The notes under the pieces are model-generated. The model saw nothing but the letters and a program-made list of their open reading frames with translations, made no database searches and was not told the origin of the DNA. DNA of 64,000 bases from Rhodoluna lacicola. GTDB taxonomy: Bacteria > Actinomycetota > Actinomycetes > Actinomycetales > Microbacteriaceae. A program made the position numbers and the translations under genes. The DNA is taken from positions 1,054,001 through 1,118,000 of the forward strand of contig NZ_CP007490.1 of the NCBI RefSeq assembly GCF_000699505.1, written 5' to 3'. Positions 37,752-57,077 of the stretch are shown here, in pieces (position 1 is the stretch's first letter; the number at the start of each line of letters is the position of its first letter).

Positions 37752-38645
37752 GTGAGCTCCCCTAACTCAAAGAAGAAATCTGGCCTGGCCCTTTATACCC
37801 AGGCGGCTGAAGCCTCATCAGCTGTGGTAATTGATAAATACTCAACCTCTTTTGGCTGGGCTACCAAATTGTTGGGTAAAGAAGACCGGCACCACGTTCG
37901 TAATATTTATGCCCTGGTTAGAGTGGCTGACGAAATTGTGGACGGAGCAGCGGCCGAGGCGTTATCAGGGGCAATTGGGGTTGACCCACACTCAATGCTC
38001 GACAAGTTTGAGCAGGAAACCTACCGCGCTGTTGAATGCGGATTCAGTACCAATCTTGTAGTGCACGCATTTGCCTACACCGCCCGTGAAGCCGGAATCA
38101 AGCGTGACCTGATTCAGCCTTTCTTTCATTCAATGCGCACCGACCTTTTCCAGCGGGTGCACGATAAGCGCAGCTTCGAGGCCTACATCTATGGTTCTGC
38201 CGAGGTCGTTGGCCTAATGTGCCTGCAGGTATTCCTGAGCCGCATCTCGGTTCGCGATGAGGAGAAGGCCGAATTTGTGGCTGGCGCAAGGGCACTTGGC
38301 GCCGCATTTCAAAAAATCAACTTTCTTCGCGACCTTTCAGCAGACTTCGACAAACTAGGTCGTTCCTACTTTCCTTTGATTAGGGTTGAGAATTTCAATA
38401 ATTCCGAGCGCGATCGACTGGTAGATGACATCAGGAATGACTTGAACACATCAAAGGTTGCACTTGCAAAGTTGCCATCCAGTTCAAAACGGGCAGTTGG
38501 CGCGGCGTTGATGTTCTTTGAGGCGCTAAACAACAAGGTTGCTGGCACCCCGGCAAATGAACTAATTAAGAAGCGCATTCGCGTTTCTGACCCGCAGAAG
38601 ATTTTTATCCTTCTAAAAGCGATGTTTGGAGTGTCCCCTAAGTGA
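37752..38645 (+). CDS. crtB: Phytoene synthase
   Basis: Condenses two geranylgeranyl diphosphates into phytoene, the first committed carotenoid step. 297 aa, squalene/phytoene synthase fold with two metal-binding Asp motifs: LVRVADEIVDG (about residues 56-66) and NFLRDLSADFDKLGR (about 190). First gene of a tightly overlapping five-gene operon. GTG start preceded by TAATCT and no Shine-Dalgarno. No crtE (GGPP synthase) lies in the window, so the precursor comes from elsewhere. Confidence 0.96.
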   Translation: MSSPNSKKKSGLALYTQAAEASSAVVIDKYSTSFGWATKLLGKEDRHHVRNIYALVRVADEIVDGAAAEALSGAIGVDPHSMLDKFEQETYRAVECGFSTNLVVHAFAYTAREAGIKRDLIQPFFHSMRTDLFQRVHDKRSFEAYIYGSAEVVGLMCLQVFLSRISVRDEEKAEFVAGARALGAAFQKINFLRDLSADFDKLGRSYFPLIRVENFNNSERDRLVDDIRNDLNTSKVALAKLPSSSKRAVGAALMFFEALNNKVAGTPANELIKKRIRVSDPQKIFILLKAMFGVSPK

Positions 38646-40243
38646 GCCAGAAAACTGCTGTTGTCATCGGAGGAGGAATCGCGGGCCTCGCGACTGCAGG
38701 AATTTTAGCTAAAGCTGGAATGAAGGTCACCGTGCTCGAGGCACGCGAAAAAGTTGGCGGCCGCGCCTACCTTTGGGAAAAAGACGGTTTCAAGTTTGAC
38801 ATGGGTCCGTCTTGGTATTTGATGCCAGATGCCTTTGATCAGTTCTTCAAACTAATGGGCACCACTGCCGCAAAAGAACTCAACCTGGTTCAGTTGGACC
38901 CTGCCTACCAAACTCGAAACGAGGGTTATGCCGAAAAACTGGTGATCAGAAAAAATCTTGAAGACAATAAAAAACTATTTGACTCAATCGAACCGGGAGC
39001 CGGTGCCCGCCTTCAGGATTACATCGACTCCGCTGAAGACACCTACAAACTCTCTATTAAGCACTTTCTTTACACAAACTTTCAGAATGCAAAGTCATTT
39101 ATTCAACCAGAGGTGCTGGCTAGGCTCGCTCGATTCCTAAAGCACCTGGTCACCCCGTTAGATACCTTTGCGGGGAAGCACGTAAAAGATGCTCGACTTC
39201 GCAAGATTCTAGATTTTCCGGCAGTGTTTTTAGGCGCGTCTCCCTATGACACCCCAAGCATGTACCACTTGATGACTCACGTTGATATGAATGTGGGAGT
39301 TTTTTATCCGATGGGTGGTTTCTACACCCTTATTGAAGCGATTGAGCGACTCGCCAAGCAGCACGGTGCAGTAGTACACACCAATTCACGTGTCACAAAA
39401 ATTGAAACCAAGAATGGCAAGGCCGTTGGCGTTTTTGCGGGCGATGTTTATTACCCAGCCGATGTTGTTGTTGGAAACGCAGACCTGCACCACATAGAAA
39501 CCCAGTTACTAAACCCCGAGGATCAGACCCTGCCTGAAAAATGGTGGGAGAACAAGGTTCCTGGGCCGTCAGCAATGTTGCTTTACCTAGGTGTAAAGGG
39601 GCGCGTGCCGCAGCTGGATCACCACACTCTGCTTTACACAGAGGACTGGGCGAAGAACTTTGAAGAAGTGTTCCGCACTCCTGCACAGAAAAAGAAATCA
39701 GGCGTGACCAGCAAGATTCCTAGTCCTGCATCGCTCTACATTTGCACCCCTAGTGTCACCGACCCATCGGTTGCTCCAGAGGGCTATGAAAATATTTTTG
39801 TCCTTGTGCCAATTGCCGCGGATCCAGAACTGGGACGTGGCGGAATCAACGGAAGCGGTGACCCAGAATTTGAGGCGGCGGCTGATCGAATCATTGAGCA
39901 GATTTCGGAGTGGTGTGAAATTCCAGATCTTGCCGAGCGAATAGTGGTTCGCCGATCGATGGGCCCAAGAGATTTTGCCGAAGATTTGAACGCCTGGTCA
40001 GGAACTGCACTGGGTATGGCGCACACTCTGATGCAGAGCGCGTTTTTTAGACCCACCAACAAGAGTAAAAAAGTTAAGGGACTCTACTACGCCGGTCACC
40101 ACAGCATTCCAGGCATTGGTCTACCAATGTGTTTGATTGGTGCTGAATTGGTTTACAAGCGTCTAGTTAATGACCGCTCCGCTGGGCCATTGAAGAACGA
40201 GATTAAGCCGGTTGGCGAGAACGGATGGAAGGGGCTCAAGTGA
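38642..40243 (+). CDS. crtI: Phytoene desaturase
   Basis: FAD-dependent desaturase converting phytoene to lycopene in four steps. 533 aa. The N-terminal dinucleotide fold is VVIGGGIAGLATAGILAKAG, followed by VGGRAYLWEKDGFKFDMGPSW, and the C-terminal FAD signature is YYAGHHSIPGIGLPMCLIGAEL. It overlaps crtB by four bases and crtYe by four. The order matches Corynebacterium-type C50 clusters. Confidence 0.97.
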   Translation: MSQKTAVVIGGGIAGLATAGILAKAGMKVTVLEAREKVGGRAYLWEKDGFKFDMGPSWYLMPDAFDQFFKLMGTTAAKELNLVQLDPAYQTRNEGYAEKLVIRKNLEDNKKLFDSIEPGAGARLQDYIDSAEDTYKLSIKHFLYTNFQNAKSFIQPEVLARLARFLKHLVTPLDTFAGKHVKDARLRKILDFPAVFLGASPYDTPSMYHLMTHVDMNVGVFYPMGGFYTLIEAIERLAKQHGAVVHTNSRVTKIETKNGKAVGVFAGDVYYPADVVVGNADLHHIETQLLNPEDQTLPEKWWENKVPGPSAMLLYLGVKGRVPQLDHHTLLYTEDWAKNFEEVFRTPAQKKKSGVTSKIPSPASLYICTPSVTDPSVAPEGYENIFVLVPIAADPELGRGGINGSGDPEFEAAADRIIEQISEWCEIPDLAERIVVRRSMGPRDFAEDLNAWSGTALGMAHTLMQSAFFRPTNKSKKVKGLYYAGHHSIPGIGLPMCLIGAELVYKRLVNDRSAGPLKNEIKPVGENGWKGLK

Positions 40244-40551
40244 GCCTGATCTATCTTGCCTCGCTTTTGGTTTCAATCGCCGGGCTTGCCGCTTTGGATT
40301 TTCGTCACGGGTTAGCAATTGCAAAGTCTAAAAAATACATCTGGCTGATTTTGATCCCCGTAGTTTTCTTTCTGACCTGGGACCTAGCTGGAATAGCTTC
40401 AGGCATCTTCTTTCGCGGCGATGCCACTCACCTAACCGGCATCCTCCTTGCCCACGAATTACCACTTGAAGAATTATTTTTCTTGATTCTGCTCAGCTAT
40501 TCGTCACTGCTTTTACTCAAGGCATTCACACGAATGGAAAAACGCAAGTGA
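40240..40551 (+). CDS. crtYe: Lycopene cyclase domain subunit, CrtYe-type
   Basis: One half of a heterodimeric C50 carotenoid cyclase. 103 aa with three membrane helices and the conserved acidic motif LPLEELFF. The GTG start overlaps the crtI stop by four bases, with AAGGGG upstream; an ATG at 40225 is less likely. In known pathways this subunit pairs with the next one to cyclise the prenylated lycopene ends. Confidence 0.88.
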   Translation: MSLIYLASLLVSIAGLAALDFRHGLAIAKSKKYIWLILIPVVFFLTWDLAGIASGIFFRGDATHLTGILLAHELPLEELFFLILLSYSSLLLLKAFTRMEKRK

Positions 40552-40844
40552 CGTATCTGGCGCTGAATTCAATTTTTCTTGGCGCTGTGATTGTCGTTGG
40601 GTTTATTCTTCGCAAGCAACTCCCATGGCGTGCTATCGCCGGTGCCACTGGAGTCCTGCTAGTTCTCACTGCAATTTTCGACAACGTCATTGTGGGCACC
40701 GGAATCGTGGCCTATGACGAGAATTTAATCTCTGGAATCAAAATTGGTTTTGCACCGATTGAAGACTTTGCCTACTCCCTGGCAGCCCCGCTGTTGATCT
40801 CGATCATCATGGCTTTATCTAAGGGAACCTCGTGGAAGCGCTAA
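40548..40844 (+). CDS. crtYf: Lycopene cyclase domain subunit, CrtYf-type
   Basis: The second half of the heterodimeric cyclase. 98 aa, three membrane helices, with the motif APIEDFAYS holding the conserved Glu-Asp pair. It overlaps crtYe by four bases and the elongase gene by thirteen. Ring type (epsilon, gamma or beta, giving decaprenoxanthin, sarcinaxanthin or C.p. 450) cannot be decided from sequence by eye. Confidence 0.88.
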   Translation: MTYLALNSIFLGAVIVVGFILRKQLPWRAIAGATGVLLVLTAIFDNVIVGTGIVAYDENLISGIKIGFAPIEDFAYSLAAPLLISIIMALSKGTSWKR

Positions 40845-41680
40845 AACAACTTTTCTGGTCCTCGCGTCCAATTTCTTGGATCAACACCGCCTACCCTTTT
40901 GGGCTGGCCTATTGGCTTGCCAGCGGAGACACCGGAATAAATCTGTGGATAGGCGTCCTCTTTTTCCTGATCCCCTACAACCTTTTGATGTATGGAATTA
41001 ATGATGTTTTTGATTACGAAAGCGATCTGCGTAATCCCCGCAAAGGCGGAATCGAAGGGGCACTGTTAGACCCAAAGTGGCACGCCTTAACCATCAGAGC
41101 TGCCGTCTTAAGCTGTGTACCTTTTGTGGCCTACCTGACCTTGGTTGGCACGTCCGGCTCAACCAGTTGGCTTTACCTTTGTCTATTCATGGTGATTGCC
41201 TACAGCGCCAAGGGATTGCGCTTCAAAGAAAAACCGTTTTTGGATTCAATCACCTCGAGTCTTCATTTTGTAGGGCCCATGATTTTTGGCTTGGCACTTG
41301 CAGAGGTTAATTTTGCGCAAAGCCAAATAATCATCGCGATTCTTGCATTTGTGCTTTGGGGCGTTGCCTCTCATGCATTTGGCGCGGTGCAAGATGTTCG
41401 CGCCGATCGCGAAGGTGGCATTTCTTCAATCGCAACTGTGATTGGAGCAAGGGCAACAGTACGGGTTTCTATGGCAGCTTACGTAACCGCCGCATTGCTG
41501 CTGTTGGGATTGGAATGGCCGTATTCACTCACATCCCTCGCCGCACTTCCCTACTTATTTATCTTGGCGCCTTTTTGGAACATCACCGATGCCACCTGCA
41601 CGCTGGCAAATTCCGGTTGGAAGAAATTTATTTGGTTGAACTTTTTAGCCGGAACCATCGTCACGCTTTTGGTGATCTAA
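40832..41680 (+). CDS. crtEb: Lycopene elongase (UbiA-type prenyltransferase)
   Basis: Adds C5 units to lycopene to build a C50 carotenoid. 282 aa with about eight membrane helices. The two Asp-rich motifs of UbiA enzymes are GINDVFDYESDLRNPRKGG and AVQDVRADREGG. Its position right after the two cyclase subunits fixes the pathway as C50. The GTG start lies inside the 3' end of crtYf. It converges with the SprT-like gene, sharing four bases at the stops. Confidence 0.93.
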   Translation: MEALKQLFWSSRPISWINTAYPFGLAYWLASGDTGINLWIGVLFFLIPYNLLMYGINDVFDYESDLRNPRKGGIEGALLDPKWHALTIRAAVLSCVPFVAYLTLVGTSGSTSWLYLCLFMVIAYSAKGLRFKEKPFLDSITSSLHFVGPMIFGLALAEVNFAQSQIIIAILAFVLWGVASHAFGAVQDVRADREGGISSIATVIGARATVRVSMAAYVTAALLLLGLEWPYSLTSLAALPYLFILAPFWNITDATCTLANSGWKKFIWLNFLAGTIVTLLVI

Positions 41681-51016: not shown

Positions 51017-52246
51017 TTATTTTTGAATTTTTTGCCAGGCAGAGAACGATTGGATGTTGCCATCTTTGGGCTCTCGCAGCCACGGGAACGGGTGCAACTG
51101 CGCGAGGCTCTCAAACTTCGCAAAACTAGGCACGGGCGCAAAGGTCACGGCAACCTTATTTTGACTTGCGTATGAGTAAGGGTCGCCAAGATAAACAGTT
51201 AGGTTTCGGCGCTCGGATAAATCCTGAAGAGTTTCCAAATAAAAGTGAATTCGCTTCGCCGATAGTTGCAATTTAGCTAGCGCATCCCGATTGAAAACAA
51301 AGACAACCGGCAAATCTGGATTGGCAACCAAAGCAGGGTCGGCATCGCCCATGGAATCAATCGTCAATAAAACCTCGTTTGGTTCGTCACGAGTGATTAC
51401 CGTTGACGGCCCGCTTGTAATAATCAAATTAGGGTCACGCTTGAGCAAATCAATCGGCGGCACACTGCGTGCCTCAACTTCAGCCGGAAAATTTTGGATT
51501 GGGCAGTTCTTCTTTAGTGGACACTTGAAACACAAGCCGGGTGCTCTTTTTTCAACTTGCCAGCGTGCAAAACCATAGGGCTTTCCTGCCGAACCAACGG
51601 TCCACTGCCAACCAAGTAGGTTTGCCGCACGCGATCCATCCAACAGATGTTGATACATGCGCTCTTGGCCATGCAACCAACCCACACCATTGCGAACAGT
51701 CCAGTGCGAAGCCAGCCACATTCTGGTTTGGTTGACCAACCAACCATCCTCTTCGAGTTCCGAGACCACCATCTTGATGCAGGACATGTCTAAGTTCCAG
51801 CCGTCACCCTGGCCATCACGATTTTGTTCGAACCTTAGGTTCTCGAAGAATTTGGTGCCAAGTCGCGCGTATAGATGGCGAGCATATTCTTGCCAAAGTA
51901 ACTCATCGCGGTATTTTTCACGATCCTTTGCCGGTGCCCCTTCGACGGCATCCCAAACCTGCTGAAGAGTCAAGAGATTGTGCCGAATGTAGGGTGACAA
52001 AACCGTTGCCCCACGACGATTTTTTGGAAGCACCTCGGATCGATCGTCGGCATAGCGGCGAATGTCTAGGTTCTGAAGCGCAAGATTCGCCGCTGACTGA
52101 CCGCCCCTGATTGAGCTCTTGGGCCCGCCGGAATGTAGCCCAGCAAAATTCTGTTCAATTATTTTTGAAGAATCTTGATTGATTTCGATACGAGTCAGCA
52201 CACCTGGCTCAACTAGCCAGCCGAGGTGCTTATTCCTAGCCACCAA
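51017..52246 (-). CDS. Domain-swapped photolyase/cryptochrome-like flavoprotein
   Basis: A 409-aa member of the photolyase/cryptochrome superfamily with its two domains in reversed order. The FAD-binding helical domain comes first (about residues 45-235): TVLSPYIRHNLLT, LLWQEYARHLY, GWLVNQTRMWLASHWTV and DGSRAANLLGWQW match standard photolyase blocks. The antenna-type alpha/beta domain, normally N-terminal, comes last (about 288-360): EVLLTIDSMGDADPAL, VVFVFNRDALAKL and FYLETLQDLSE. Cysteines C156, C239, C242 and C248 are spaced much like the [4Fe-4S] ligands of FeS-type photolyases. In DGSRAANL the second Asp of the usual DGDxAxN is Ser. Start uncertain among TTG/GTG codons at 52246 and 52243. 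Light sensing or DNA repair are both possible. Confidence 0.8.
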   Translation of the reverse strand: MVARNKHLGWLVEPGVLTRIEINQDSSKIIEQNFAGLHSGGPKSSIRGGQSAANLALQNLDIRRYADDRSEVLPKNRRGATVLSPYIRHNLLTLQQVWDAVEGAPAKDREKYRDELLWQEYARHLYARLGTKFFENLRFEQNRDGQGDGWNLDMSCIKMVVSELEEDGWLVNQTRMWLASHWTVRNGVGWLHGQERMYQHLLDGSRAANLLGWQWTVGSAGKPYGFARWQVEKRAPGLCFKCPLKKNCPIQNFPAEVEARSVPPIDLLKRDPNLIITSGPSTVITRDEPNEVLLTIDSMGDADPALVANPDLPVVFVFNRDALAKLQLSAKRIHFYLETLQDLSERRNLTVYLGDPYSYASQNKVAVTFAPVPSFAKFESLAQLHPFPWLREPKDGNIQSFSAWQKIQK

Positions 52247-52282: not shown

Positions 52283-52414
52283 ATGGAAAGCAACTTTGAA
52301 CTGCCAATCAACGAAGTTACCGTCTTGCTTGGGCTAGGCGCCGTTGGAATCATCACCGTAATTAGCCTGTTTCTGTACCTGGTCGTCGACGCCGTGTTCG
52401 GCAAGGAAAACTAG
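52283..52414 (+). CDS. Small single-span membrane protein, 43 aa
   Basis: A 43-residue protein with one strong hydrophobic helix (about 12-36) flanked by an acidic N terminus MESNFELP and a C terminus DAVFGKEN. AAAGGG six bases before the ATG supports this start; the open frame extends to 52226. It is divergent from the photolyase-like gene, with the two starts only about 36 bp apart, and ends just before the tandem terminator repeats. No function is proposed. Confidence 0.6.
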   Translation: MESNFELPINEVTVLLGLGAVGIITVISLFLYLVVDAVFGKEN

Positions 52415-52435
52415 AGTCCGAATTCCCGCAAAAAC

Positions 52436-52606
52436 TAAAAAAGACGCCTCTCAGCGTCTTTTTCTTTTGCTAATTCGTTGAACTCATTTTCAGCGCACAA
52501 GCTAAAAAAGACGCCTCTCAGCGTCTTTTTCTTTTGCTAATTGGTTGAACTCATTTTCAGCGCACAAGCTAAAAAAGACGCTTGTCAGCGTCTTTTTCTT
52601 TTGCTT
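52436..52606. repeat. 67-bp tandem repeat carrying terminators (2.5 copies)
   Basis: Units start at 52436 and 52503, with a partial third at 52570. Each begins with TAAAAAAGACGC...GCGTCTTTTT, a stem with A and T tracts that can terminate transcription in both directions. Units 1 and 2 differ by one base; unit 3 differs in the loop side of the stem (CTTGTC for CCTCTC). The unit end GCGCACAAGC is the exact reverse complement of GCTTGTGCGC at 52603-52612, which includes the 3' end of tRNA-Lys. The array thus stacks three terminators after the 43-aa gene and the tRNA. Confidence 0.9.
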
Positions 52607-54090: not shown

Positions 54091-54128
54091 AAATCCCACC
54101 CCAGTTTGCGGGTGGGATTTCTTTTTAT
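54091..54128. terminator. Bidirectional terminator, whiB1/pdtaS
   Basis: AAATCCCACCC/GGGTGGGATTT stem with a T tract on each side, between the convergent stops of whiB1 and pdtaS. Confidence 0.9.
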
Positions 54129-55597
54129 AAAGGCACCGATATTGCCACGCGGGCCCCACCCTCAGAAGGCGAAGACCAGTGGATGCTGCCGCGAAGTTCA
54201 CCCTCAATCAGGGTGCGAATAATCTGGGTACCAAGGCCGGCACCAACCTTGCCGTCGGTCAGTCCCTTGCCATTGTCGGAGACGGTAATCAGCAACTGCT
54301 TTTGCTTGCGCTCGGCATTTACGGCAACCACTCCGCTTCTGTCAGCAAGACCATGCTCAACCGCATTGGTCACGATCTCAGTCAAGGCAACCGCAAGCGG
54401 GGTGGCAATCTCACTGCGCAGCTGACCAAACTTTCCATCAATCAGAGTCTTGATTGAGGTGTTTAGGCTTGAGGCCACCTCGGTGGCGAGCATCAGGATT
54501 CGATCGAAGACTTCATCGAAGTTCACGTCTTGATTTAGACCTTCACTAAGGGTGTCATGCACCAGGGCAATCGCTGAAACGCGGCGCATGGCCTGTTCGA
54601 GTGATTCTTTGGCTTCGGCGCTCTGGCTTCGGCGCGATTGAATGCGAAGCAAACTTGCCACGGTTTGCAAATTGTTTTTCACGCGGTGGTGAATCTCGCG
54701 GATGGTTGCGTCTTTGGTGATCAGCTCGCGCTCCTGTTTGCGCAATTCGGTTGCATCGCGGCACAGCACGATTGCGCCAACGCGCTTGCCCGCTGCTTTG
54801 AGTGGAATTGCACGCACGGTAAGAGCCACGGTGCGCGATTCCATATCGGTGCGCCAAGGAGCACGACCGGTTAGCACCAGCGGCAGCGACTCATCAACAT
54901 TTTTACCCTTGAGAATTGGGGTAGATGCCTCGGCTAACGACTTACCCTCAAGCTCCCCCACGATTCCCAAACGATTGAAAGCCGATAGCCCGTTTGGGCT
55001 GGCAAACAAAACTACGCCATCTTCATCAAGACGAAGCAGACCGTCGTTAGCGCGCGGTGCTCCGCGGCGAGGTCCGGTTGGGTTGCTGAAATCCGGAAAG
55101 TTTCCCTCGGCAATCATTACCAGCAGGTCATTACCGCAGCCAAGGTAATTCAGCTGCAGTCGGTTGGGCATGATTACCTCAGTCAGATTTGTGTGACGTG
55201 TGACCACTGCGATTGGTTCTGGAGTGACTTCATCTGACTTGGTAGAAAGTTTGCGCCGCACAGGAACTGCACTCAAACGCGTGGTGGTTCCATCTGCTCC
55301 GGCCTGAGCCTTGGTGTCCACGGTTTGTCCGGTTTCAAATGCCTGCTTAACCTGAGCTGCCCATTCTTTGCGAATAGGTTCGCCGCTGATGTCGCGATAA
55401 AAAATTGTCGCGGCCGATGATGGTCGTGCGTGACCGGCGGCGACAAAACCGCCATCGGGGGTTGGCAACCAAAGAACAAGGTCGGCAAAGACCAAGTCGG
55501 CAACTAACTGCCAATCGGCGAGCAATAGGTTAAGCCACTCGATGTCGGCGTGCGAGGCACGACCGTGGGCTTTGTTTAACTCGCTAAGTACTGACAC
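54125..55597 (-). CDS. pdtaS: Sensor histidine kinase PdtaS
   Basis: A cytoplasmic HisKA_2/HWE-like kinase of 490 aa. An N-terminal GAF-like domain (about 1-145), a PAS domain (about 180-285) and the phospho-acceptor region REIHHRVKNNLQT with His303/His304 are followed by an ATPase domain with EIVTNAVEHGL and SDNGKGL. In mycobacteria PdtaS phosphorylates the RNA-binding antiterminator PdtaR, controlling genes after transcription starts; its partner is not in this window. The GTG start abuts the stop of the CpaE-like gene. Confidence 0.93.
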   Translation of the reverse strand: MSVLSELNKAHGRASHADIEWLNLLLADWQLVADLVFADLVLWLPTPDGGFVAAGHARPSSAATIFYRDISGEPIRKEWAAQVKQAFETGQTVDTKAQAGADGTTTRLSAVPVRRKLSTKSDEVTPEPIAVVTRHTNLTEVIMPNRLQLNYLGCGNDLLVMIAEGNFPDFSNPTGPRRGAPRANDGLLRLDEDGVVLFASPNGLSAFNRLGIVGELEGKSLAEASTPILKGKNVDESLPLVLTGRAPWRTDMESRTVALTVRAIPLKAAGKRVGAIVLCRDATELRKQERELITKDATIREIHHRVKNNLQTVASLLRIQSRRSQSAEAKESLEQAMRRVSAIALVHDTLSEGLNQDVNFDEVFDRILMLATEVASSLNTSIKTLIDGKFGQLRSEIATPLAVALTEIVTNAVEHGLADRSGVVAVNAERKQKQLLITVSDNGKGLTDGKVGAGLGTQIIRTLIEGELRGSIHWSSPSEGGARVAISVPL

Positions 55598-56458
55598 CTA
55601 ACCGAGTTTAGCGATTGCCCTCCTGGTCAATCTGCCCTGAAGTTTGCTTTGCTCACCAAGCACCTGGGTCCGGCAAAAAAGGGCAAGAGCCAGCCTTGCC
55701 TGTGAAGATCGCTTGCCCACGGTAATCGGTAGACATTCACGAATGGCTAGGTCTGCCGCTGCTGGGTCGTCTGGAATGAATCCGCTTACGCTAATCTGCC
55801 CCAAACTAGACAGCGTCTCGGCAATTTGCTGTTTGGCTGATCCACCTAAAACTGAGACGCGAAGTCGATTGACCACGGTGAGAACCAAACCTTTGGGTTG
55901 GAGTTCGGCGACCTGAGTCATGGCCGCCAAGTATCGAGCGATTGAAACCGGATCTGCCCCGCACACGGCAATTACCTTATCTGCGTACGTTACTGCCCAC
56001 CTGGCTACAGCGTTCCTATCAACCGAGCTAGCCAGGGCACCCACGCCGCCACTGAGGGGTGAGGCAACATCCAAAACGACGAAGTCAAAAACTTTACTGG
56101 CCACCATTATCAAGTCGTCAATTTTTTCGGAACTTACTTCTGCCCAGCGAGATTCGGAGCTCAGCCCTGTCATAACGGTTAGGTCGCCGCTGCCAAGCGT
56201 TAACTTGGTACTCAAACGCTCAAGCTGTTCCATGTCAAAACGATCCTGGCCAACTAGCCGACAGGCGGCAGCCAGGCCCGCGGGGTGTTCGCGAAGCCCA
56301 AGCAAAACATCCAAACTGGGGGCATAAGTATCGGCATCCAACAGGAAAACCCGCTTACCAGCATCGGTTAATTCGCTGGCGATACTCAAGGCAATCGCAC
56401 TCTTGCCAGGTGAACCCAGCGGCGACCAGACCGTAATTAACTGAGCGTCACTACTCAT
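55598..56458 (-). CDS. ParA/MinD-type ATPase, CpaE-like
   Basis: A 286-aa P-loop ATPase of the MinD/ParA class. The P-loop reads SPLGSPGKSA (12-21), lacking the signature lysine in the usual first position, and FLLDADTYAPSLDVLLGL is the switch/Walker A' segment. The C-terminal half has VLTVVNRLR, as in CpaE. CpaE-like proteins position Tad pilus machinery, but no tad genes are here. It overlaps the SAF gene by eight bases and is followed by pdtaS. Confidence 0.82.
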   Translation of the reverse strand: MSSDAQLITVWSPLGSPGKSAIALSIASELTDAGKRVFLLDADTYAPSLDVLLGLREHPAGLAAACRLVGQDRFDMEQLERLSTKLTLGSGDLTVMTGLSSESRWAEVSSEKIDDLIMVASKVFDFVVLDVASPLSGGVGALASSVDRNAVARWAVTYADKVIAVCGADPVSIARYLAAMTQVAELQPKGLVLTVVNRLRVSVLGGSAKQQIAETLSSLGQISVSGFIPDDPAAADLAIRECLPITVGKRSSQARLALALFCRTQVLGEQSKLQGRLTRRAIAKLG

Positions 56459-57077
56459 CAGCGAGAGTTGGTCGTAGCACTAGTGAAAGCTTTGAACCCG
56501 AAGACATTGCTCCCAAAACCGGACCCACAGCTTCAACCGGAACCCACAGCTCTACATCCGGTCCGGAATTGTTAAACATCTCTGTTTTCTCGAGCAGTCG
56601 GGCGACTTCAGCGCCGAGCACAAGCGCGTACGGTTCGCCAACCAGATTTTCATCATCGATAGGCGTCACCCAAATATCCACCGACGCCCCTGCGATCAAT
56701 CCGGACGAGAGACCCATGGCAGAACTCACAACAAGCGGCACTCGCTCATCGATCACGGCGCTGGCCAGCATGCTTTTGGGGATTAGCTGCCCCTTGCGCA
56801 CCGGACCAAGCAAATAGCCGCCGCTTGGCAAGTCACCCACTGACAGGTAGTTTCCAGCCGTGATGCCAAGGTTTACTTGAGCGGTTGCCGAATCAGCCAG
56901 AGCTATGGGGCTCCCGGCTGGCAGGTCGCGGCCGGCAACCAAGTATTCGCTGGTCTGATTGTTGGCGACAATGACTGCGTTCACGCCCAGAACGGACGAA
57001 GTAAGCAACAAAATTGCCAAGACAAGATTTCGCAACCTTATCCGGTGTGGTGATTTTAGATTTCTAACTTTGGCCAT
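56451..57077 (-). CDS. SAF-domain protein, CpaB/RcpC-like
   Basis: A 208-aa protein with a basic N terminus, a signal-anchor helix (about 16-38), a SAF domain (about 44-105, YLVAGRDLPAGSPI and LLGPVRKGQLI) and a beta-rich tail. CpaB proteins with this layout are periplasmic parts of Tad secretion systems. Here only a CpaE-like partner is present. It would sit outside the membrane. Confidence 0.8.
   Translation of the reverse strand: MAKVRNLKSPHRIRLRNLVLAILLLTSSVLGVNAVIVANNQTSEYLVAGRDLPAGSPIALADSATAQVNLGITAGNYLSVGDLPSGGYLLGPVRKGQLIPKSMLASAVIDERVPLVVSSAMGLSSGLIAGASVDIWVTPIDDENLVGEPYALVLGAEVARLLEKTEMFNNSGPDVELWVPVEAVGPVLGAMSSGSKLSLVLRPTLADE

Follow-up and report, generated by a model that had tools for sequence, protein, structure and literature searches.

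What does a photolyase-like protein do when its FAD-binding domain comes first and its antenna domain last, the reverse of the usual order? This question is raised by an open reading frame (ORF) on the minus strand of the genome of the actinobacterium Rhodoluna lacicola, lying in a stretch of 64,000 nucleotides (hereafter the window; positions 1,054,001 to 1,118,000 of NZ_CP007490.1) that is part of a single 1.43-Mb contig. The features discussed below are the following, members being the 30 aligned actinobacterial proteins of this type.

51017..52246, minus strand: whole ORF, 409 aa from a TTG codon, with a likelier start at GTG 52199-52201, giving 394 aa; the gene is most likely cpf2 (rhola_00011000)
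51482..52129, minus strand: FAD-binding photolyase domain with the cysteine motif (alignment A4); the closest PDB entry is 1tez/1owl, a class I CPD photolyase (profile E 2.8e-22)
51779..51781, minus strand: Cys156 in the 409-residue numbering (Cys141 of 394), first candidate Fe-S ligand; present in 30/30 members, 4/4 Deinococcus proteins and 5/5 FeS-BCPs
51632..51634, minus strand: Ser205 in DGS-x2-AN, where the canonical DGD-x2-AN has Asp; Ser in 30/30 members
51503..51532, minus strand: Cys239-x2-Cys242-x5-Cys248, the other three candidate Fe-S ligands; present in 30/30 members, the columns being Cys in 4/4 Deinococcus proteins and 5/5 FeS-BCPs
51020..51406, minus strand: shortened antenna-type alpha/beta domain (alignment A3), assigned by profile-profile comparisons and a PDB profile search

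The Gene and Its Surroundings

Homologues aligned with the protein begin downstream of the TTG codon, and in a near relative (L003) the open frame ends short of the position matching it; the GTG at 52201, which gives a protein of 394 residues, is therefore the likelier start. PMC8591293 names a phytoene synthase (Rhola_010860), cpf2 (rhola_00011000) and a peroxiredoxin (Rhola_00011030) of this organism. If locus tags step in tens, a gene count that sets out from crtB (37752) and from the peroxiredoxin gene (52749) lands exactly on rhola_00011000, and the gene types in the window match at the corresponding steps. Because this count agrees with the published tags, the ORF is most likely cpf2, which has been published as an uncharacterised cryptochrome-photolyase family protein (PMC8591293).

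The gene stands alone, with neither a signalling nor a carotenoid partner beside it. Its neighbours were compared over 25 regions, none longer than about 13 kb, namely the window, L003-L006 and 20 others. The commonest neighbour cluster (8/25 regions) is a mix of distant ABC-transporter ATPases, and the peroxiredoxin and the glyoxalase-like gene near the photolyase gene recur in five of the 25, these being the window, L003, two genomes of the same genus and L086, which belongs to another genus of the same family. Such counts are lower bounds, since ORF picking missed the gene itself in 3/25 regions (L088, L095, L096). The carotenoid genes reported by the first-pass annotation are present in the window, about 10 kb from the photolyase gene: a row at 37752-41680 comprises a phytoene synthase, a desaturase-like oxidoreductase, two small membrane ORFs and a UbiA-type gene, and we take it to resemble C50 carotenoid clusters.

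Several other features of the surroundings may be recorded in passing. Divergent from the photolyase gene, with some 80 bp between the two, a 43-aa ORF with one hydrophobic stretch (52283-52414, plus strand) fits rhola_00011010 by the same gene counting. A 67-bp tandem repeat (52427-52605; 2.7 copies, 95% matching) lies directly before a tRNA-Lys gene and bears three terminator-like hairpins (52438, 52505 and 52572). Further along, the stretch 54125-57077 (minus strand) is conserved in two genomes of the same genus; it encodes a putative histidine kinase that includes a sensor part and a ParA/MinD-like ATPase, and holds one more gene.

A Photolyase-Like Protein with Its Domains in Reverse Order

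The N-terminal part of the protein is readily placed. Pfam FAD_binding_7 matches residues 161-219 above its cut-off (E 2.3e-7), a PDB sequence search aligns residues 46-223 with residues 205-399, the FAD part of the class I CPD photolyase from Synechococcus (E 1.8e-14), and both sequence and profile searches of PDB put class I CPD photolyases closest to this domain. Pfam and PDB searches of the protein found no domain ahead of the photolyase match, hence no N-terminal alpha/beta domain, and Pfam gave no match to the N-terminal domain PF04244 (DPRP); the sole PF04244 match in the genome lies elsewhere, in an FeS-BCP protein at C1:1330031-1330609. The antenna-type domain comes last, so that the order is the reverse of that in class I CPD photolyases. 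An intact frame with reversed domain order had been claimed by the first-pass annotation, and both points hold: the ORF is unbroken throughout, and in Pfam FAD_binding_7 is followed by DNA_photolyase (residues 311-346), the latter only at E 0.11. Its term "circular permutation" suits the order well enough, but fusion of two separately encoded domains explains that order equally well. By its predicted architecture, the protein fits the inverted-order photolyases, with an N-terminal FAD domain and a further domain after it.

That this further domain derives from an antenna domain is less easily seen. The DNA_photolyase match is below cut-off, and matches at E<=1 occur in just 3/30 members (best 0.014), so that Pfam alone is no proof of an antenna domain. 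A profile of the last 129 residues of the 30 members (A3) was compared with 177,635 PDB sequences, seven of which matched at E<10; all seven matches fall in antenna regions (E 0.85-0.99) of entries named photolyase/RE11660p or Cryptochrome-1, and they are worth about one, because the alignments are identical or nearly so. Profile-profile comparison gave clearer results. Against seven canonical antennae the C-terminal domain reached 94.7% (score 50.5), in a set holding seven of 21 fetched sequences, the other 14 having missed the first cutting pattern and one of the seven being cut short. With a wider cutting pattern, which kept 14 of the 21 and left out seven that resemble class II, it reached 96.6% (score 61.6, 106 columns). 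Column-shuffled decoys scored at most 25.8 for the first antenna set (200 shuffles, mean 12.7) and 20.7 for the wider one (100 shuffles); with the profile reversed the score was 12.2, the highest-scoring other ORF among the 67 of the window reached 21.3, and comparison with the canonical FAD domain gave 0.1%. Since both scores exceed the decoy maxima, these comparisons establish that the C-terminal domain is homologous to the ordinary antenna domain beyond chance.

Further evidence comes from Deinococcus. Three plasmid-encoded proteins of this genus have the same reversed order and a longer C-terminal domain, which matches canonical antennae at 97.8% and the domain of the actinobacterial family at 98.3% in profile-profile comparison. 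In Deinococcus sp. QL22 (L075 1096-2387), the FAD and antenna domains are encoded separately, in ORFs that share 4 nt. The product of the second ORF, annotated just as a hypothetical protein, matches canonical antennae at 96.5-97.2% (134 columns) and the family domain at 98.1%, and Pfam DNA_photolyase over residues 27-152 of 164 at E 2.3e-4, below cut-off. The Deinococcus domains thus bridge the family and the canonical antennae.

Could the C-terminal part nevertheless be an unrelated Rossmann-like domain that resembles an antenna domain by chance? The faint Pfam matches and the weak PDB matches lean that way, as do the C-terminal domains of NewPHL from six alphaproteobacteria, which reach only 2.0-27.5% against canonical antennae. 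Set against the distance between observed and decoy scores, the Deinococcus bridge and the fact that antenna regions were the sole matches at E<10 in the whole PDB set, a chance likeness appears very improbable, and the antenna domain claimed by the first-pass annotation stands. In the alignment, the helices near its third and fourth strands are shorter than those of the Deinococcus domain, a shortening that makes pigment binding doubtful.

Cysteines and Active-Site Residues

Residue counts refer to the alignment of the 30 members; three fragments (L007-L009) are included in alignment A1 and were dropped from A2. The four cysteines of Fe-S type pointed out at residues 156, 239, 242 and 248 are where they were said to be, and occupy the Cys columns of the FeS-BCPs. 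Their spacing is 84-3-6 in 27/30 members and 83-3-6 in the remaining three, including the Rhodoluna protein; in FeS-BCPs it is 88 or 89, 3 and 13. The full set is absent from the aligned alphaproteobacterial (six), Persicobacter (one), canonical (14), DASH (one) and class II (seven) sequences, and a single alphaproteobacterial protein of the six has Cys, at the first column only.

The replacement of an Asp by Ser in the FAD-site motif DGDxAxN, likewise noted at first pass, is confirmed as Ser205 and concerns the second Asp of the motif. Asp occupies this column in the Deinococcus (4/4), alphaproteobacterial (6/6), Persicobacter (1/1), canonical (14/14) and DASH (1/1) proteins. Ser at this Asp382-equivalent position could alter the flavin chemistry.

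The residues that contact the CPD in class I enzymes are largely retained, Glu115, Trp118, Asn172 and Trp215 each in 30/30 members and Met176 in 26/30; Glu, Trp and Met at these columns presumably have the CPD-contact roles that they have in class I photolyases. FeS-BCPs differ here, with His in 5/5 at the Asn172 column and Trp in 0/5 at the Trp215 column. Two Trp that align with the electron-transfer chain of class I enzymes, and presumably act in the same way, are each invariant (30/30); the third Trp of the chain could not be placed.

A Candidate CPD Photolyase

The reading that best accommodates these observations, to which we assign a probability of roughly 0.72, is that of an actinobacterial inverted-order, Fe-S-type CPD photolyase (of the SPL / Phr4-Phr6 type), composed of a FAD domain and a transposed, shortened antenna domain. 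From the class I CPD-type residues we infer specificity for CPD, and a photolyase rather than a light sensor. In such an enzyme the N-terminal domain would bind FAD and the damaged base pair, and blue light would drive the transfer of an electron from the light-reduced FAD to a CPD, which the conserved residues Glu, Trp, Asn, Met and Trp would keep in place. The four cysteines would hold an Fe-S cluster in the FAD domain, with a structural role or as an aid to electron supply. The transposed C-terminal domain would pack on the FAD domain at the usual antenna position and close the site, its antenna chromophore having perhaps been lost. Transcripts of cpf2 follow the same pattern as those of phrB, a CPD photolyase gene; the expression group also includes actR, so that co-expression is not specific to repair (PMC8591293). 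Against CPD repair stand the absence of Met176 from four of the 30 members and the invariant Ser in place of Asp. In published work, phr4 mutants are UV-sensitive, and phr4/phr5 protect E. coli after UV-C with no significant difference between light and dark (PMC9426592). This lack of light dependence is a real gap in the case for a light-dependent enzyme.

The cysteines themselves suggest another specificity. All four columns are common to the FeS-BCPs (PhrB/CryB), the prokaryotic (6-4) photolyases, with which the permuted proteins form a clade in LG+G4 trees (84.7/92 and 96.5/99), and it was because of the cysteines that the authors of PMC9426592 suggested (6-4) activity for Phr4, Phr5 and Phr6. 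A (6-4) photolyase is nonetheless an unlikely identity for the Rhodoluna protein, for all 30 members have Asn where the FeS-BCPs have His (5/5), the residues Trp118, Asn172 and Trp215 are those expected of a CPD enzyme, and the genome also encodes the PF04244-containing FeS-BCP protein mentioned above. A slightly lower probability still attaches to a cryptochrome, that is, a blue-light or redox sensor steering light responses such as those of the carotenoid genes, which the first-pass annotation had considered plausible. The organism reacts to light while a proven sensor is lacking, and cpf2 transcripts cycle with light and dark (PMC8591293). However, the repair residues are intact and fit a CPD photolyase, the carotenoid genes are about 10 kb away rather than adjoining, and the authors favour a different gene, cryB (PMC8591293), for which a gene replacement is already in print. 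No conserved signalling partner was found among the neighbours in the 25 regions, and a light sensor was rejected as the main reading on this ground; a sensor role in addition to repair may exist. Repair of CPD thus continues to be the function that we favour.

Relation to Known Inverted-Order Photolyases

Among related enzymes of the same phylum, a member of the SPL group from the actinobacterium Rhodococcus fascians has reportedly been tested biochemically. By description, SPL enzymes resemble the Rhodoluna protein in having a class I/III-like FAD domain without an N-terminal alpha/beta domain and, in some cases, an Fe-S cluster; they differ in being described without any alpha/beta domain, whereas the Rhodoluna protein has a shortened C-terminal one (Xu et al., 2021, as cited in PMC9649867 and PMC9178010). 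Both citing papers set SPL apart as a separate class, one that shows CPD activity and contains an Fe-S cluster. The picocyanobacterial Phr4/Phr5 pair and the fused Phr6 also have the FAD domain first and the photolyase domain second, and the cysteines of RS9916 Phr4 (C169, C254, C257 and C263; spacing 85-3-6) compare with 83-3-6 in the Rhodoluna protein; in contrast, Phr4 and Phr5 are often encoded by two genes, and conservation is reported for their FAD residues, as opposed to Ser in the Rhodoluna protein, a comparison again made by description (PMC9426592). The QL22 pair is a two-gene arrangement like that reported for marine Synechococcus phr4/phr5.

The inverted topology with an N-terminal FAD domain is likewise described for NewPHL in papers that cite Emmerich et al. 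(2020), and reportedly goes together with light-dependent CPD repair in single-stranded DNA. Six alphaproteobacterial proteins (L043, L044, L071-L074), taken as NewPHL by description and not by named sequences, appear to group with the family, at moderate support (89/76), but have no Fe-S Cys set, keep the Asp and end in a Z-domain that is not clearly alignable. The C-terminal domain of the family gave 0.8% against this Z-domain and 0.3% against the C-terminal domain of Persicobacter, so that neither is shown to be the same as the family domain; the Z-domain reached 44.3% against the Deinococcus domain and 27.5% against the 14 canonical antennae. FeS-BCPs share with the Rhodoluna protein the four Cys columns and a short K-P-Y loop, and differ in their N-terminal PF04244, their His in place of Asn and their Cys spacing. 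Class I CPD photolyases share the CPD-contact residues (30, 30, 30, 26 and 30 of 30) in the opposite domain order.

The arrangement is not unprecedented, for NewPHL, SPL and Phr4/5/6 are already in print. Title and full-text searches, with most subscription papers outside their scope, found no paper on the domain order of the Rhodoluna protein itself. Since inverted-order Fe-S photolyases are already known from other bacteria, the Rhodoluna protein is a genuine but not a novel case. What it adds is modest: antenna homology tested against decoys, a pair of split genes in Deinococcus, and a Ser peculiar to the family.

Spread and Descent

Of 396 genomes sampled from the phylum, 26 (that of R. 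lacicola included) encode a full-length member, at E 1.8e-119 or better; the next match (1e-17) is of ordinary photolyase type. They occur in 20 of 299 genomes of the Microbacteriaceae and in 4/7 genomes of the same genus among those listed, a patchy spread that fits loss or transfer. One genome of the Microbacteriaceae (G425) carries two full-length copies, L083 and L084, about 25 kb apart. In viral contigs, tblastn from 36 stretches found no relatives; eight phage records matched, in the FAD domain only and none over 80% of the query; and only two of 79 plasmid records with a match, both from Deinococcus, cover at least 80%.

For the FAD domain, trees were computed under LG+G4 with 61 rows (seven class II-like sequences left out) and 68 rows (those kept), and under a mixture model with 61 rows. 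In each tree one branch separates all the reversed-order proteins from the rest. Its support is moderate, with SH-aLRT/bootstrap values of 79.6/96 and 81.3/91 under LG+G4 and bootstrap/SH-aLRT values of 89/76 under the mixture model, where the long branch leading to Persicobacter is marked as uncertain. On the mixture-model tree, domain order needs one change and the cysteine set two. As a tentative history, which we hold to be possible at well below even odds, the order would have been inverted once, by joining in reverse order two separately encoded photolyase domains; Deinococcus QL22 and the Phr4/Phr5 of marine Synechococcus would represent the two-gene state; the transposed domain would then have shrunk, within the Actinomycetota, to a pigment-free lid; and the FAD domain would have kept the Fe-S cluster common to it and the FeS-type (6-4) photolyases, with CPD chemistry kept or regained. 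Were this history true, the SPL enzymes described without an alpha/beta domain would carry one at the opposite end.

What the Locus Means

With these findings, the range of inverted photolyases that bear the four cysteines widens to many families of actinobacteria, and decoy-controlled evidence indicates that their C-terminal domain is an ordinary antenna domain that has moved. The natural split pair of QL22 lends itself to domain-complementation tests. For R. lacicola, the uncharacterised cpf2, listed in print as a possible light sensor, gains a specific and testable job, that of a putative Fe-S CPD photolyase.
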